Source of the DNA: Bacillota bacterium
GTDB lineage: Bacteria; Bacillota; Desulfitobacteriia; Desulfitobacteriales; JAJXUE01
DNA length: 42,777 nt
Reading direction: 5' to 3'
NCBI GenBank assembly: GCA_021783135.1
Contig: JAJXUE010000024.1
Location: 1-42,777, forward strand
The translations under genes and the position numbers were made by a program. This document shows, in pieces, positions 1-17,787 of this stretch. Numbering within the stretch: the first letter of the stretch is position 1; every line of letters starts with the position of its first letter. The notes beneath the pieces were generated by a model, which was given only the letters and a program-made list of their open reading frames with translations, did not search any database and had not been told where the DNA came from.

Positions 1-242
1 AGATCATCTAAACAAGTCAAAAAGGATTGCTGCTTAGGTTTTCAAAAAGAATTTATTAACTAGATTCTGGAGGTCTCGCCTTCGGAAATCAAACATTATG
101 AAATTGACTCGAATACTAAAATAAAGGAAATCGTTTTATTTCCAGCGAAATTACGCATAAATACTCAGTTAATTTAGTCATACAAGCGTTAATAGCTTTG
201 TCCACACAAAAAAACAGACAATCAAAAAGGGGATGGTTTGCA
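1..242. other. Leader region upstream of the transketolase/RLP operon
   Basis: No convincing gene lies here. A short inverted repeat (GGAAAT/ATTTCC, about 127-144) could form a small hairpin, but no run of T follows it. I see no clean sigma-A promoter with correct spacing. The operon promoter may lie here in a weak form or upstream of the window, where partner genes may also sit. Confidence 0.4.
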
Positions 243-1163
243 ATGCAACAAAAATTGAATAAAGCACCCTGGCAGGATGATGTTTACCGGGCAGCTAACG
301 GTATCCGGCGCCGGGTGCTTGAACATACGGTCAAAAATAACGGAGGATACCTCAGCCAGGCATGTTCTTCGGCCGAGATCCTCGCAACACTTTATGCTAA
401 GGTGATGAACTTAGCCCCTGTGATCCAGCCGATAATGCCGGATATGTTTTGCGGCGTGCCGGGACCTGACAACCCGGATTATGTGACAGGAGCTTTTTAT
501 AATGGAGCAAAAGGGGCTGAGTATGACCGCTTCTTTTTGTCCCCATCACAATATGCCTTAGTCGTCTATGCTGCTCTGATTGAATTGGGCCGGATGGATC
601 CACAAGGGCTGGAGATGTTCAACCAAGATGGCAGTATCGTTGAGATGATCGGGGCTGAGCATTCACCGGGGATGGAAGTAATGTCCGGTTCCTTGGGACA
701 GGGAATCAGTCAAGCAGCCGGAGTAGCCATGGCTCGCAAATTGAAAGGTGAACCGGGCAAGGTCTGGGTGTTCATGTCAGACGGAGAATTTCAATCCGGT
801 CAGACGTTGGAAGCGTTGCAGACTATGGCCTTTCACGGCTTAGATAACATGCGTATTTACGTAGATGTCAACGGCTGTCAATGCGATGGTCCAATGCTTA
901 GTGTCATGAATATCGAGCCCTTCGAGCAACGACTTGCAGGCTTTAATCTGCGCGTGTTTCGCGTCGATGGCCATGACATTGAAGTACTGGCTGCTCTTGG
1001 GCAGGTAAAATCTGACGGCCGTCCGACCGTCATTCTCTGTGACACATCGCCTCCACATGGCTTGGATATCTTAAAATCGCGTGCCCCCAAATATCATTAC
1101 GTACGCTTTCGAGATGCAGCAGAGCGCGATGAATTTGGTAGGGTTCTTGCCCAGCTGGGATGA
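243..1163 (+). CDS. Transketolase, N-terminal (TPP-binding) subunit
   Basis: This is the first half of a split transketolase, the subunit that binds the diphosphate and Mg end of thiamine diphosphate. In the 306-residue product the TPP region is clear: GSLGQGIS (149-156), then SDGE (179-182) and an Asn about 30 residues later (N210), the usual GDG-x(n)-N motif with Ser for the first Gly. ATG at 243 is chosen because AAAAGGGGAT lies about 10 bases upstream; a TTG at 198 in the same frame would add 15 poorly conserved residues. The C-terminal half starts 14 bases downstream and a RuBisCO-like gene follows, so the three are probably one operon. Split transketolases occur in ordinary pentose metabolism and in specialised routes such as apulose-4-phosphate transketolase (AptA/AptB). 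The substrate cannot be read from the sequence. Confidence 0.93.
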   Translation: MQQKLNKAPWQDDVYRAANGIRRRVLEHTVKNNGGYLSQACSSAEILATLYAKVMNLAPVIQPIMPDMFCGVPGPDNPDYVTGAFYNGAKGAEYDRFFLSPSQYALVVYAALIELGRMDPQGLEMFNQDGSIVEMIGAEHSPGMEVMSGSLGQGISQAAGVAMARKLKGEPGKVWVFMSDGEFQSGQTLEALQTMAFHGLDNMRIYVDVNGCQCDGPMLSVMNIEPFEQRLAGFNLRVFRVDGHDIEVLAALGQVKSDGRPTVILCDTSPPHGLDILKSRAPKYHYVRFRDAAERDEFGRVLAQLG

Positions 1164-1177
1164 GGAGGGATTAAGTA

Positions 1178-2185
1178 ATGGAAATTCTTGCGAAGGTGCA
1201 TGCCAAGCATTTAGTGAAGTGGGCGCAACACAAGCCCGAAGTTCTGGTCCTTTCCGCTGATTTGACCAGTTCTACCGAAATTGACTTATTCCGTGATGCG
1301 TATCCGGAGCGGTTTCTGTCTATGGGGATTGCCGAACAAAATATGTTAAGTTTTGCCGGAGGGTTAGCCCGCGAAGGATTTATACCTTTGATTCACACCT
1401 TTGCCGTGTTTATTTATCGGCGTGCTTATGATCAGATTGCCATGTCGGTAGCGTATCCAAATCTTCCAGTGAAGATGTTCGGTTTTTTGCCCGGCATCAT
1501 GACCCCTGGCGGCGCAAGTCATCAGGCGATTGAGGATATTTCTGTGTTGCGTTCTTTGCCCAATATGACGATTCTGGAATGCGGGGATGCCACAGATGTC
1601 GAATCAGTGTTGCAATTGGCCTACGAGATTCCGGGGCCGGTCTATGTCCGTATTTTGCGCGGGGAGATTCCCCGCCTGTTCGACGCCAATAACCCCATGG
1701 TTCTCGGCCACGCTCGTACACTTGCGGAAGGTACAGATGTTGCGCTTTTCTCCAGTGGTATTTGCATTGAAGAAGCAATGCGTGCGGTGCGCGTGCTACA
1801 AAACCGCGGCGTATCCATCAACCATATGCATGTTACCACCCTAAAACCGTTTAATGACCCTAGTGTCTTAGCAGCAGTTGCCAAGGCCAAGTACGGAGTA
1901 GTTACAATGGAAAACCATTCAATTATCGGCGGCCTGGGCTCAAGTGTTGCCGAGGTGATGGCCGAAGCAGGTATTGGCCGTAAATTAGTGCGCATTGGCA
2001 TTAAAGATACCTTTGTGCATGGCGCGAGTAAGCCCTACCTGATGCGAGAGTATGGTCTAGACGCCGTGGCCTTAATTGGTGAGGTAGAGAAACTCATGGA
2101 AGAACAGTTTGCGATTCAAACGGAAGAACTTGGCGAAGTTTATCTCGCTCCGGTCCATAGTGCGGCCAAAGCGGAGGCTTTATAA
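1178..2185 (+). CDS. Transketolase, C-terminal (pyrimidine-binding) subunit
   Basis: This is the second half of the split transketolase (335 residues), holding the pyrimidine-binding domain and the C-terminal domain. The catalytic glutamate that activates thiamine diphosphate is E53 in MGIAEQN (49-55). The conserved stretch with TPGGASHQAIEDIS follows at about residues 108-121, as in transketolase and DXP-synthase C halves. ATG 1178 has AGGAGGG about 8 bases upstream. The two halves have separate start sites and Shine-Dalgarno sequences, so this is a true two-gene arrangement and not a frameshift. Its stop lies one base before the start of the next gene, whose Shine-Dalgarno sits inside this coding region, so the two are probably translationally coupled. 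Confidence 0.93.
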   Translation: MEILAKVHAKHLVKWAQHKPEVLVLSADLTSSTEIDLFRDAYPERFLSMGIAEQNMLSFAGGLAREGFIPLIHTFAVFIYRRAYDQIAMSVAYPNLPVKMFGFLPGIMTPGGASHQAIEDISVLRSLPNMTILECGDATDVESVLQLAYEIPGPVYVRILRGEIPRLFDANNPMVLGHARTLAEGTDVALFSSGICIEEAMRAVRVLQNRGVSINHMHVTTLKPFNDPSVLAAVAKAKYGVVTMENHSIIGGLGSSVAEVMAEAGIGRKLVRIGIKDTFVHGASKPYLMREYGLDAVALIGEVEKLMEEQFAIQTEELGEVYLAPVHSAAKAEAL

Positions 2186-2186
2186 A

Positions 2187-3347
2187 ATGGCATTACAAGT
2201 AGATAATGACCGCTTACAAGGACTTATTTCAGGTGAGAGGTTTTCTGTCATCTATCGCCTCCAAGGTAATGAGACGGAAGCAAGCATGCAGGCCAGAGAT
2301 ATTTGCCTCGAGCAGACGGTAGAATTTCCGGAGGAGTTAGTGCCGGATGGAGTTATTCGGAATAAAATTCTAGGGCGCATCGAAAACATGGAAGCTTGGG
2401 ATGAAGCCAGTTTTAAGGTGGAAATTTCCTATGCTGTAGAGACCTCCGCTCTGGAATTAACCCAGCTTTTGAATGTGATTTTTGGCAACATCAGTATTAA
2501 ACCCGGCATCCGGGTAGAAGAAATTAATCTCCCGCAGAGCCTGCTCAGCTGTTTTAAAGGCCCCCGGTTTGGCAGGGACGGACTGCGCCAACTTCTCAAG
2601 GTAGCAAAGCGACCGCTGTTATTCACCGCACTTAAACCTATGGGACTATCCGCATCTGAACTTGCTGAGTTAGCATATCAATTTGCCCTGGGTGGAATTG
2701 ATATTATTAAGGATGATCACGGACTTACCGATCAATTGTTTGCACCTTTTGAGGAACGGGTAATCCTTTGCACGCAAGCCGTGCAAAGGGCCAATCAAGC
2801 GACAGGTCATCATGCTATTTATGTGCCGAATGTGACTGCTTCTTACCACAATCTGCTCAAGCGGGCTCGTTTTGCAAAGCAGGCGGGTGCCGGTGGGTTT
2901 TTAATCGCGCCCGGTTTGACCGGACTTGATGCAATACGCACCCTGGCGGATGATGACGCACTTGCACTCCCACTTTTTAGTCATCCGGCTTTTCAAGGCA
3001 GTTATGTAATGGGGACTAGCGGCATTGCCCATTATGCCCTTTACGGACAAATTATGCGGCTTGCCGGCGCCGATGCCGTCATTTACCCCAACTTTGGTGG
3101 GCGATTCTCGTTTAGTCGTGAAGAATGCACCCGGATTGCCCAAGGCACTTCTGTACCGATGGGGCCTATCCGCCAGATTTTCCCGAGCCCAGGTGGCGGG
3201 ATGAGTGTCGAAAGCATACCCGAGATGATTAAGGTCTATGACAACGATGTTATCTTTCTGATTGGCGGCGGACTGTTTAAGCAAGGACCTGATTTAGTTG
3301 AAAACTGCCGGTATTTTAGAGCCTTGGTAGAAAAGTACTATACTTAG
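2187..3347 (+). CDS. RuBisCO-like protein (type IV RuBisCO large-chain homologue)
   Basis: The 386-residue product has the RuBisCO large-chain fold motifs but not the full carboxylase set. K150 in ALKPMGLS matches RuBisCO K175, while the K177 position is Met. In GIDIIKDDHGL, K175 and D177 match K201 and D203, but E204 is replaced by H178. N101 matches N123. FSHPAFQG (264-271) replaces the HR (294-295) region, and PNFGGRF (301-307), SPGGGMS (334-340) and GGGLF (360-364) match the later loop and phosphate-binding segments. Loss of E204 and K177 argues against CO2 fixation. Known RLP jobs include enolisation in methionine salvage and decarboxylation of 3-oxo-isoapionate 4-phosphate (OiaX); the HPAF and GGRF signatures look closer to the non-salvage group, which is my inference. 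ATG 2187 has GGAGGC 9 bases upstream. No small-subunit gene or phosphoribulokinase is present. Confidence 0.9.
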   Translation: MALQVDNDRLQGLISGERFSVIYRLQGNETEASMQARDICLEQTVEFPEELVPDGVIRNKILGRIENMEAWDEASFKVEISYAVETSALELTQLLNVIFGNISIKPGIRVEEINLPQSLLSCFKGPRFGRDGLRQLLKVAKRPLLFTALKPMGLSASELAELAYQFALGGIDIIKDDHGLTDQLFAPFEERVILCTQAVQRANQATGHHAIYVPNVTASYHNLLKRARFAKQAGAGGFLIAPGLTGLDAIRTLADDDALALPLFSHPAFQGSYVMGTSGIAHYALYGQIMRLAGADAVIYPNFGGRFSFSREECTRIAQGTSVPMGPIRQIFPSPGGGMSVESIPEMIKVYDNDVIFLIGGGLFKQGPDLVENCRYFRALVEKYYT

Positions 3348-8905: not shown

Positions 8906-9667
8906 CTATCCACAACCAATTTGGAGGTTCTTAATTATCTTTTCTGCCATCACTTCCCGCATAGACTTTTTGGAGTCAAGTGCTAGGATATATGAGTTGT
9001 GAATGACTCTATCCATGATGGCGTCTGCTATAGTGGGGTCTGGGAATAAATCATACCACTGTGTATGGGCGATTTGTCCGGCTAAAACCATAGAGCCTTT
9101 GTTGTAACGGCTTTCGGCGATTTCAAGGATATCCCGGCTTTCTTCCAGTGAGTATGACTTAAGACCGATGTCATCTAGGATTAGGAGTTTGGTGTTTTGA
9201 AGCTGAGCCATGAACTTGGCGTAGCGGTTGTCATTTTTGGCATCCTGAATTTCTAGTAAGAGTTCCGGGATTCTAAAGTATTTAACGCTATAGCCATGCC
9301 GACAGGCGTTATTCCCCAAGGCGCAGGCGATATAACTTTTTCCACTACCGGTTTTACCAGAGATCACGATGTTTAGTTTTTGCTCCATGAACATGCATGT
9401 TGACAGTGTCTGGATGGTCTTCTTGTCAATTGTTCTGTCTGCGCTATAGTCAATATCTTCAATACAGGCATTTAACCCGAGAGATGCATGATTTAAAAGC
9501 CTTTGGATTCGGCCGTTTTTCTTGGCTTGCCACTGCTTTTCAACCATGATACCGAGGCGTTCCTCAAAGGACAGATCCCGTAATGCTGAGTCTGGTTCAC
9601 TTAACATTTGAGCCATTACTTTAAGTTTTAAGTCCTTAAGCTTTTCTACTGTGGGGTTGTTAAGCAT
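8906..9667 (-). CDS. istB: IS21 transposition helper ATPase IstB
   Basis: IstB is the AAA+ ATPase that guides target choice for IstA. With the chosen start the product has 253 residues, normal for the family. It begins with MLNNPTVEKLKDLKL, shows Walker A GKTGSGKS (104-111) and a Walker B LLILDDIG, and ends with the arginine-rich AAA+ segment. ATG 9667 has GGGGGTGG upstream and overlaps the istA stop by 8 bases, the usual coupled arrangement. Longer in-frame starts (up to 9733) would add a non-family N-terminus. Confidence 0.92.
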   Translation of the reverse strand: MLNNPTVEKLKDLKLKVMAQMLSEPDSALRDLSFEERLGIMVEKQWQAKKNGRIQRLLNHASLGLNACIEDIDYSADRTIDKKTIQTLSTCMFMEQKLNIVISGKTGSGKSYIACALGNNACRHGYSVKYFRIPELLLEIQDAKNDNRYAKFMAQLQNTKLLILDDIGLKSYSLEESRDILEIAESRYNKGSMVLAGQIAHTQWYDLFPDPTIADAIMDRVIHNSYILALDSKKSMREVMAEKIIKNLQIGCG

Positions 9668-11180
9668 GGATACCACCCCCAGCATATGCTCTACTGCCTC
9701 GTATATTGACATGATTGACAATTTTCTCATCATTGGTATCTGTAGCTTTGGCAGTCACTTGTTTTAGTATGATGCTGAAATACTTAAAGGAATAGGTCTT
9801 TTGGGCTAGGGCCTCCTGGCTCGCAGCTTCCATAATTTCAGCAGAATGACTTTTGCTGAACCTCATAATTCCCATGCAGGCACGATAGGTTTGCACCGGG
9901 TATTCACGGCTTTCGAGAACATACTGTAGCAATTCTCGAGTATTGGGACCAATTTTCTCTGCCCAGTTCAGAAAGCGGTCCGGACTCCAACCAGATACGG
10001 CTTTATGGGCTTCCGGCATATGTTCAGGTAGCGTTATGTATCGTTTGTATGGGTTGTAGTTTCTCGGATAAGCAGCTACTCTTTCCCCGGCAATAAATAT
10101 TTCAATGGTTTTGGATGTTGCCCGTACTGAGCATGATTGGCCAACATTGGTAAAATGAACACTGTAGAAAAAGCCGTCGTAGTCAACATGGTAATTGAAT
10201 TGGACTTTAGTCTCTTTCCAGTCCGAAAATTCATATCTCGTGGCAGGAAGGGCCTGCAAAACAGGCTTGTCGATCTTCTCAAATGCCGTCAACCGGTTGC
10301 CCTTCATCTTCTGAAAGGGGCGGTTGACCAACTTCACCAGTTCTTCTTTGATTGATTCGTTAATCTCCAACAGGCTGAAAAACTGCCTGTTCCTGAGTGC
10401 TGCTATGATTCTTCTGGACACATTGCCAACCATGTTCTCATCAGCAGCCTTATCCTTTGGTCGGCCAGCGCGGGCCGGGACCAAGGTGGTTCCGTAATAC
10501 CTGGCCATTTCGCAATAACTCTTGTTTAATACCGGATCAACAAGATCCGTTTTAATAACTGCGGTTTTAGTATTGTCCGGGATCGTTACCTTTGGAACAC
10601 CGCCAAAGTATTCATAGGCCCTAACATGGGCATCTATCCAGTTAGGCAGTTTGGTATCACCAAAAGCATAAGCAAAAGGGTAGGCACTGGCGGGCAGGAC
10701 CGACACAAAGAGGTAAGCAGGCTTAATTTCTCCGGTTTCAGGTTCAACATAGGCCATTGTCGTTCCTGCCCAATCAACTTGCATCTCCTCGCCAGCTGTA
10801 TGCTCGACATGCATGGTTAACTGATTAGTCTTTCTAAACTTCCTGTAGCGCTCGCAAAATTGGGTATACATGATCCCATCGGGATGCTTCGCCTTGTATT
10901 CTTCCCAGAGAAGCATCAGAGTTACGTGCTTTTTCTTCATCTCGTAAAAGACGTACTCCATGTCGGGTTCGGGAACTGAATCTTTCTTCTCTGTAGGCGG
11001 GTACAGCAATGATAGCAACTGCTTGTCACTAAGATCAATTGGCCAAGTTATTCCGGCTTTCCCCGCTCGCTCAAGAATCTCTGAAACTGTTGATTTGCCA
11101 CAATTACACGCTTTCCCAATCTCACGTAATGACAATCCCACTTCATGTTTGAGCTTTAAAATTTCTCGCGCTTTCAGCAT
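9660..11180 (-). CDS. istA: IS21 transposase IstA
   Basis: The 506-residue product begins with a helix-turn-helix (LSLREIGKACNCGKSTVSEIL, here LSLREIGKAC and GKSTVSEIL) and carries a DDE integrase core: first D in EMQVDWAGTT, second in TIPDNTKTAV and the E in KAADENMVGNV. The C-terminal region has the FYSVHF and beta-barrel part common to IstA. ATG 11180 is preceded by GAGGAGG at about 6 bases, better than the ATG 15 bases further upstream. No frameshifts are visible. Confidence 0.93.
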   Translation of the reverse strand: MLKAREILKLKHEVGLSLREIGKACNCGKSTVSEILERAGKAGITWPIDLSDKQLLSLLYPPTEKKDSVPEPDMEYVFYEMKKKHVTLMLLWEEYKAKHPDGIMYTQFCERYRKFRKTNQLTMHVEHTAGEEMQVDWAGTTMAYVEPETGEIKPAYLFVSVLPASAYPFAYAFGDTKLPNWIDAHVRAYEYFGGVPKVTIPDNTKTAVIKTDLVDPVLNKSYCEMARYYGTTLVPARAGRPKDKAADENMVGNVSRRIIAALRNRQFFSLLEINESIKEELVKLVNRPFQKMKGNRLTAFEKIDKPVLQALPATRYEFSDWKETKVQFNYHVDYDGFFYSVHFTNVGQSCSVRATSKTIEIFIAGERVAAYPRNYNPYKRYITLPEHMPEAHKAVSGWSPDRFLNWAEKIGPNTRELLQYVLESREYPVQTYRACMGIMRFSKSHSAEIMEAASQEALAQKTYSFKYFSIILKQVTAKATDTNDEKIVNHVNIRGSRAYAGGGIHA

Positions 11181-11253
11181 TTCGATCCTCCTCATCTGTC
11201 GGCCCCCTTTTCGTCTGTAAAAAGGGTACCAGTTAGTTCACTAACTCGACAAG

Positions 11254-16183: not shown

Positions 16184-17425
16184 CTACCGGTCCAAACGGA
16201 AGGATGCGTGCAAGGCGCGAACTGCCTGTACCATATTGTCTTTGGCCACCAATACCCAAATTGTGGCATTCGAATCCGCCGATTGCAGCACTTGAATATT
16301 CTCATTGGTTAAAGCCTCGATTACTTGAGCCATTACGCCTGTTACTTCCGCTATCCCACCGCCTATTACCGCTATCTTAGCACAGCTGGCCTTAACGACA
16401 GCCTCAAAGCCCATATTGGCAAGGATCTTAACTGCCTTTCCCGCCACTTCATCTTTTACCGTGTAAACCACAGCCGTGGGCAAAATCGTAATAAAGTCCA
16501 CGCTGATATCCGCCAAGGCCATCGCCGCAAAAATCTTTAAATTAAATTCCGGGGTATGTTTAGCAGGATCGACGTTGAGCCATAATTGGCTGACATTAGG
16601 GGTATGAGCAATACCGGTTATCAACCGATCACTTGTAATATCAGTGTGTGCCTCCATGGTATCACTGTCAACCTGATTAGTAACCAGCGTTCCACTGGCA
16701 TCGCTAAAGGTCGATTTTACCCATAACGGGATATTGCGTTGCGCCGCAATCTCAACCGCGCGAGGATGAATAACCTTCGCGCCCTGATATGCCAACTGGA
16801 CTATCTCATTGTAGGTAACTACATCGAGAATACGCGCATTTTCTACCAGTCGGGGATCTGCCGTCATGATTCCTTCGACATCGGTGTATATTTCAATTGC
16901 CTCAGCATTTAGCGCCACACCAAGGGCCGAGGCCGTAGTATCGCTGCCACCACGCCCCAAGGTCGTAATATCGCCATCTTCGGTAACCCCTTGAAATCCG
17001 GCCACCACCACAATCTTGTCCTGGGCCAAATTGGCTAGGATGTTTTTCGGTTCGATGCGAATAATGCGTGCATCGCCAAAGGTGTTTGTCGTGATAATTC
17101 CGGCCTGGGCACCTGTTAAAAGCACTGCCTCATAGCCTAGTGCCAACAAACTTGTGACCATGACAGAACCGGAAATCACTTCCCCACACGACATTAGAAT
17201 GTCTAGTTCACGGCGCGGAATATCATGATTGATGCCTTTAACTAAATTTAAAAAAGTATCTGTTGCATAAGGATCGCCATTACGCCCAATAGCCGACACC
17301 ACCACTACCGGACTGAATCCCGCATCTTTAGCGGCAATAATCTTCGCTGCGGCCTGTGCCCGGCGATCGGGATCTGCCACAGAAGTCCCACCAAATTTTT
17401 GCACCAATATTTTCAAATTGCGCAT
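16184..17425 (-). CDS. dapG: Aspartokinase (DapG-type), lysine-riboswitch-controlled copy
   Basis: Aspartokinase makes aspartyl phosphate, the first step to lysine, threonine, methionine and diaminopimelate. The 413-residue product has KFGGTSV (9-15), the kinase core with TTLGRGGSDTTA, and two C-terminal ACT domains (about residues 265-410). This single-polypeptide length fits DapG/LysC. It is closely similar to the second copy at 22362-23603, with the same length and no gaps apparent. It is monocistronic, with its own promoter, lysine riboswitch and terminators. In B. subtilis the riboswitch controls lysC (aspartokinase II), whereas here the protein resembles the dapG copy. Which amino acid inhibits this enzyme cannot be read from sequence. 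ATG 17425 has AGGAGAG upstream. Confidence 0.93.
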   Translation of the reverse strand: MRNLKILVQKFGGTSVADPDRRAQAAAKIIAAKDAGFSPVVVVSAIGRNGDPYATDTFLNLVKGINHDIPRRELDILMSCGEVISGSVMVTSLLALGYEAVLLTGAQAGIITTNTFGDARIIRIEPKNILANLAQDKIVVVAGFQGVTEDGDITTLGRGGSDTTASALGVALNAEAIEIYTDVEGIMTADPRLVENARILDVVTYNEIVQLAYQGAKVIHPRAVEIAAQRNIPLWVKSTFSDASGTLVTNQVDSDTMEAHTDITSDRLITGIAHTPNVSQLWLNVDPAKHTPEFNLKIFAAMALADISVDFITILPTAVVYTVKDEVAGKAVKILANMGFEAVVKASCAKIAVIGGGIAEVTGVMAQVIEALTNENIQVLQSADSNATIWVLVAKDNMVQAVRALHASFRLDR

Positions 17426-17562: not shown

Positions 17563-17597
17563 GCAAAAGCAAAAGTAAAAAACTTTTTACCCCGTTG

Positions 17598-17767
17598 TGC
17601 AAGATAGCGCACCACCCGGATCTCGGGTGACAGTCTTGTACTTCTTAAGCACAAGCCCAGCAAGAATTCGGTCCAATTAAATCCCTGCTTCGGCGGCGAC
17701 TCCTTTCCACACCACTCATCGTTTGGTCACTCCCAGTGCGTACTCTTAATTCACCGCGCCTCTACCA
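17598..17767 (-). ncRNA. Lysine riboswitch (L box)
   Basis: The minus strand shows the L-box core in order: GGTAGAGGCGCG, AAGAGTA, GGAGTG, GGAGTCGCCGCCGAAGC, GCTGGGC, ACTGTCAC and GGTGCGCTATCTTG. These match the B. subtilis lysC leader in sequence and order. Bound lysine should favour the downstream terminator and lower aspartokinase expression. Confidence 0.93.
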
Positions 17768-17787
17768 TTCACTTTTCAATTGCATTT

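Follow-up and report, generated by a model that had tools for sequence, protein, structure and literature searches.

Recycling of 5'-methylthioadenosine (MTA) in strict anaerobes is only partly known, and few oxygen-independent routes have been described. One is the MTA-isoprenoid shunt of Rhodospirillum rubrum and Rhodopseudomonas palustris, which comprises MtnP, MtnA, a RuBisCO-like protein (RLP) of the Deep-Ykr class, a cupin methylsulfurylase and O-acetylhomoserine sulfhydrylase (PMC4958253, PMC5893883). Another is the dihydroxyacetone phosphate (DHAP) shunt, in which MtnP, or a nucleosidase plus MtnK, is followed by MtnA and the class II aldolase Ald2. Here we describe an operon of three genes, tktN, tktC and an RLP gene, coding for the two halves of a divergent split transketolase and an RLP, in a 42,777-nt window that is one whole contig (G000:C58:1-42777) of a Bacillota genome. 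As in the MTA-isoprenoid shunt, the RLP class, the upstream enzymes and the sulfhydrylase are all present in this genome, and the route would be independent of oxygen; unlike in that shunt, the cupin is missing and the split transketolase is found instead. It is very likely that the trio acts in the salvage of MTA or of 5'-deoxynucleosides, and probable that it forms the second half of an oxygen-independent MTA salvage route in which the transketolase replaces the cupin. Because the defining cupin is missing, we do not count this route as a member of the MTA-isoprenoid shunt, and because a split transketolase stands in its place, deoxyxylulose-5-phosphate is not the expected product.

The initial annotation of this stretch had described a three-gene operon with gaps of 14 bases (TktN-TktC) and 1 base (TktC-RLP), and both the coordinates and the Pfam families agree with it. 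Its account of the RLP active site also holds: IIKDDHG retains K201 and D203 with His in place of E204, and ALKPMG has K175 and lacks K177. No other protein of the RuBisCO family is encoded in the 2.7 Mb genome. Among solved proteins, the R. palustris RLP 3qfw matches the window's RLP most closely in sequence (E 1.6e-76; runner-up 2.9e-47; 261 bits, with the best MtnW at 164.8), and 3qfw also ranks first by fold when a predicted model of the window's RLP (mean pLDDT 71) is compared. The KDDH motif is common to 3qfw (KDDHG) and invariant across five aligned relatives. We take 3qfw to be R. palustris RLP1, on the grounds that RLP2 is 2qyg in the PDB; the 3qfw entry itself is silent on RLP1. Deep-Ykr enzymes include R. 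palustris RLP1 and the R. rubrum RLP, and these two turn 5-methylthioribulose-1-phosphate into 1-methylthioxylulose-5-phosphate plus 1-methylthioribulose-5-phosphate in a 3:1 ratio; R. palustris RLP2 does not carry out this conversion (PMC5893883). From this kinship in sequence and predicted fold, 5-methylthioribulose-1-phosphate is the predicted substrate of the RLP in the window.

The trio is not peculiar to this genome. With a profile built from five RLPs, the best 80 of 211 relatives among GTDB genomes were retained with as much as 10 kb of flanking sequence at either end; together with the window and other loci in hand, minus one duplicate, these make 82 distinct loci. Transketolase halves are present in 59 of them (only one half is visible in a few short contigs), and in 49 of these 59 the end of TktC falls within -200 to 60 bases of the RLP open reading frame. 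Such recurrence puts the arrangement far from chance and removes the concern, raised by the initial annotation itself, that the trio might not be conserved in relatives. Six of the 82 loci are too short for the partner to be judged. The hosts belong to Bacillota, Chloroflexota, Spirochaetota, Nitrospirota, Planctomycetota, Acidobacteriota, Calditrichota, Elusimicrobiota, Pseudomonadota and Lokiarchaeota, although single placements need care because many hosts are metagenome bins. A Lokiarchaeota bin carries mtnK-mtnA-tktN-tktC-RLP (L078:4571-10139), and the route may extend to archaea provided that this bin is clean.

A pointer to function comes from what the transketolase is exchanged with. 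A cupin is found in nine of the 82 RLP loci, and cupin and transketolase occur together in none (nominal hypergeometric 2.8e-6). The top solved matches of this cupin are 3kgz and 3jzv (E 4e-43 and 2.5e-41), and 3jzv is Rru_A2000, the methylthioxylulose-5-phosphate sulfurylase of R. rubrum (PMC4958253); close relatives of the window's RLP adjoin the same cupin family that serves the MTA-isoprenoid shunt. The pattern recurs among 250 genomes sampled evenly across the phylum (RLP above 390 bits, TktC at E 1e-110, cupin at E 1e-40): six genomes have the RLP, three of them with TktC and the other three with the cupin, and at these thresholds neither TktC nor the cupin is found in the remaining genomes of the sample. 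Drawn at random, three genomes would all belong to those six with a nominal probability of 20/2,573,000. In genome G168 the cupin and the RLP lie on different contigs, so the exchange is not merely an effect of neighbourhood, and the genome of the window (G000) has no cupin match at E 1e-40 or better. On a quick tree, cupin-linked RLPs are interspersed among transketolase-linked ones with five changes of partner, of which the well-supported branches alone require no more than one. Since the cupin-linked RLPs are scattered in this way, the RLP probably catalyses one and the same reaction with either partner, and the most economical interpretation is that, downstream of the RLP, cupin and transketolase can stand in for each other.

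A few loci depart from the usual layout. At L029:4239-5243, which is probably contig G173:C235 of one of the three TktC genomes in the phylum sample, the TktC frame has one in-frame TGA, between an intact TktN and an intact RLP; the assembly is fragmented, and decay and assembly error are both possible. L013, L091, L094 and L095 form a divergent RLP subclade, mostly from Planctomycetaceae bins, in whose loci neither transketolase nor cupin was found, three of the four contigs being short upstream of the RLP. At L011:59-2469, genes resembling pyridoxamine oxidase and nucleoside phosphorylase come after the RLP.

The transketolase itself is unusual at the residues that matter for its donor. The nearest solved chains are the N-terminal chain of 6yak for TktN and 6yaj for TktC, both from the split transketolase of Carboxydothermus hydrogenoformans, which shares the two-gene split and, unlike the trio enzyme, keeps the canonical equivalents of His26, His66, His100 and Asp469. 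The genome of the window also encodes a DXS-like protein and an ordinary split transketolase, to which TktN is 30% (N half) and TktC 39% (C half) identical. We aligned 53 trio proteins, in E. coli TktA numbering, and compared their active-site columns with those of two DXS and two canonical split transketolases. The cofactor machinery is kept, with Glu411, Asp155, His473 and Arg520 invariant and almost no variation at Asn185 and Ser385 (52-53 of 53). The residues for ordinary ketose-phosphate donors are not: His26, present in TktA, both DXS and both canonical split enzymes, is Tyr in 53/53; His461 is Phe in 53/53; Asp469 is Gly in 52/53; and His100 is Met in 51/53 (Phe in DXS). The His66 position holds His or Gln. 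The change at His461 is weak evidence because canonical split enzymes also have no His there. In known transketolase structures, the C1 hydroxyl of the donor is held by His100 and His473, and its C3/C4 side by His26 and Asp469; DXS handles a C2 unit that is simply acetyl, without a C1 hydroxyl. A donor with SCH3 for OH at C1 would fit the set of residues that has been lost.

The neighbours of the trio in other genomes, and the genes elsewhere in its own, tie it to MTA and methionine. Of the transketolase loci, 12 contain mtnA and nine contain mtnK, and these together span Bacillota, Chloroflexota, Spirochaetota, Pseudomonadota and Lokiarchaeota; two of the mtnA-like genes are less certain, at 42-45% identity to the MtnA of the window's genome. 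In Clostridium ljungdahlii (L040:1562-11110) and C. drakei (L047:1431-11107), an S-adenosylmethionine (SAM) riboswitch heads a run of eight genes in the order sugar-type ABC transporter (three genes), mtnK, mtnA, tktN, tktC and RLP, an operon well suited to laboratory work. In another locus, genes for a corrinoid protein and a RamA/AcsV-like activase lie immediately 5' of the trio (L025:4459-11122); on its 3' side are a SAM riboswitch, metX, a metB/metC-type gene and cysK (L025:11455-15616). Corrinoid mlp gene clusters have been proposed for anaerobic methionine salvage in a paper whose main text mentions neither transketolase nor RuBisCO (PMC10418091), and L025 is a physical link between the trio and that proposed cluster. 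In the genome of the window, the missing upstream steps that the initial annotation expected elsewhere lie on contig C66, in an operon of mtnP, mtnA, a class II aldolase gene and an MTA/deoxyadenosine-deaminase-like gene (L096:6495-10373), with O-acetylhomoserine sulfhydrylase on contig C56. The MtnP, MtnA and sulfhydrylase exceed their cut-offs of 274.9, 279 and 495.1 bits; mtnK is absent from this genome and MtnP takes its place. The upstream steps, and the mtnP-mtnA-aldolase operon, are like those of the DHAP shunt, which differs from the trio route in that its aldolase splits 5-methylthioribulose-1-phosphate directly, with neither RLP nor transketolase; the genome seems to hold both. Co-occurrence with mtnA across the phylum was also considered as evidence and set aside as uninformative, because 194 of the 250 genomes have mtnA.

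Taken as a pathway, the proposed route would start with MtnP, or a nucleosidase plus MtnK, followed by MtnA, yielding 5-methylthioribulose-1-phosphate from MTA, which the RLP would isomerise to 1-methylthioxylulose-5-phosphate. This compound is the likely substrate of TktN/TktC. The thiamine diphosphate would attack its C2, the C2-C3 bond would break and glyceraldehyde-3-phosphate would depart, leaving a cofactor-bound carbanion/enamine next to the carbon that bears SCH3. By analogy with known chemistry, the likeliest continuation, although less than an even bet, is that the enzyme expels methanethiol and keeps an acetyl unit. Thiamine enzymes make comparable expulsions, of water in phosphoketolase and of sulfite in sulfoacetaldehyde acetyltransferase. 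The acetyl unit could be freed as acetate or acetyl phosphate; the full reaction of a lyase giving glyceraldehyde-3-phosphate, methanethiol and acetyl phosphate, a methylthio analogue of phosphoketolase, is possible, and is the part of the scheme in which we have least confidence. O-acetylhomoserine sulfhydrylase would convert the methanethiol to methionine. The assignment to this pathway is strong; its exact chemistry is an inference. The more general idea of the initial annotation, of an RLP that makes a ketose and a transketolase that splits it, in series on an unusual sugar phosphate, is very probably right.

Several observations weigh against this proposal. The window's own operon contains neither a SAM riboswitch nor mtn genes, and eight of the 82 loci have neither transketolase nor cupin nearby despite enough upstream sequence. 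The class II aldolase of the genome could itself consume 5-methylthioribulose-1-phosphate. In the active-site alignment, a one-residue gap beside His100 makes the partner of that column uncertain, and the trio proteins have an additional conserved His five residues past it. Moreover, the cupin of the known shunt depends on glutathione to reduce its substrate to deoxyxylulose-5-phosphate; a transketolase is incapable of this, and its replacement of the cupin would therefore give different products. Lack of glutathione does not account for the swap, as neither cupin genomes nor transketolase genomes contain glutamate-cysteine ligase (PF04262).

The same pathway could operate with the C-S bond retained, giving glyceraldehyde-3-phosphate and 2-(methylthio)acetaldehyde or transferring the methylthio-C2 unit to another sugar phosphate. 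This would be ordinary transketolase-family chemistry with all core cofactor residues kept, methylthioacetaldehyde is a known product of the DHAP shunt (PMC5893883), and members of the zinc alcohol-dehydrogenase family lie near the trio in L034, L067, L080 and L082. We nonetheless hold it to be rather unlikely: it would be redundant, because the genome's aldolase would already yield methylthioacetaldehyde, and the exchange with a methanethiol-freeing cupin, the SAM riboswitches, metX and the sulfhydrylase family indicate release of the sulfur. The SqwGH transketolase of the sulfo-TK pathway offers a comparison as an anaerobe transketolase recruited for an unusual sulfur-bearing sugar; it leaves the sulfur on the aldehyde product, whereas in the trio the sulfur would sit on the cofactor-bound C2 unit (PMC9594981).

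Salvage of 5'-deoxynucleosides, with the RLP and TktN/TktC acting on 5-deoxyribulose-1-phosphate and 1-deoxyxylulose-5-phosphate, is improbable as the main role, even if methylthio and deoxy substrates could both be used. Many of the named trio carriers are anaerobes, a deoxyadenosine-deaminase-like gene sits within the mtnP-mtnA operon, the C1 pocket of the trio transketolase resembles that of DXS, and in the DHAP shunt a single enzyme set serves both by-products (PMC10986504). Against it, the SAM riboswitches, metX, cysK and O-acetylhomoserine sulfhydrylase at trio or cupin loci point to sulfur salvage, the cupin that is exchanged with the transketolase acts on a methylthio compound (PMC5893883), and cleavage of deoxyxylulose-5-phosphate would squander an isoprenoid precursor.

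Breakdown of apiose or apionate, with the RLP decarboxylating a 3-oxo acid phosphate and the transketolase acting on apulose-4-phosphate, is very improbable. Split transketolases (AptA/AptB) and an RLP (OiaX) do belong to these pathways, and the initial annotation had made this link. It does not stand: the OiaX model of NCBIfam gives 82.3 bits on the RLP against a cut-off of 700, and apionate gene families are absent among the annotated conserved neighbours of the trio, which are MTA, methionine, transport and regulatory genes. Least probable of all is an MtnW enolase of oxygen-dependent methionine salvage beside an unrelated transketolase, the placement that the initial annotation had seen as adverse to its idea: two MtnW enolase models are the RLP's best NCBIfam matches, but at 221.5 and 171.1 bits they miss their cut-offs of 409 and 513.6, the motif is KDDH instead of the KDDE seen in MtnW structures, the aldolase of the genome scores 82 bits against 137 for mtnB, and 59 loci pair the transketolase with the RLP.

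Our literature search covered open-licence papers, with preprints and subscription journals outside its scope, and gave none that links a transketolase with the metabolism of methylthioribulose or methylthioxylulose; an earlier description may therefore exist. If our proposal is true, the trio adds an MTA route with a new thiamine enzyme activity across many phyla, including industrial acetogens, and, should TktN/TktC indeed yield methanethiol and acetyl phosphate, gives anaerobes a redox-neutral MTA salvage that recovers the sulfur and an energy-rich acetyl group. It would also provide a likely function for an RLP clade, and for a divergent split transketolase of the kind that automated pipelines would label as ordinary. 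The features of the window's operon are collected in Table 1.

Table 1. The trio genes and their diagnostic motifs, in window coordinates.
Feature	Position	Strand	Description
TktN, 306 aa	243..1163	+	Thiamine-diphosphate-binding half of the divergent split transketolase; Pfam Transketolase_N 66.5 bits
TktC, 335 aa	1178..2185	+	Pyrimidine-binding and C-terminal half; Transket_pyr 109 bits, Transketolase_C 68.5 bits
RLP (RuBisCO_large), 386 aa	2187..3347	+	Deep-Ykr-like; predicted 5-methylthioribulose-1-phosphate isomerase
Signature NNGGYLSQACS in TktN	336..368	+	Replaces SGHP of ordinary transketolases; E. coli TktA His26 is Tyr here
FLPGIMTPGGASH in TktC	1484..1522	+	E. coli TktA counterpart HDSIGLGEDGPTH; His461 to Phe, Asp469 to Gly, His473 retained
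KDDH active-site motif of RLP	2709..2720	+	K201, D202, D203, then His for Glu204

An Rfam search of the leader of the window (1-260) gave nothing credible, and promoter and terminator scans of the window returned matches no more numerous than in shuffles. On the minus strand, further along, an ordinary lysine riboswitch (17597-17772) lies 5' of an aspartate-kinase-like gene (16184-17425), and an IS21-type element (IstA and IstB) occupies 8906-11195.

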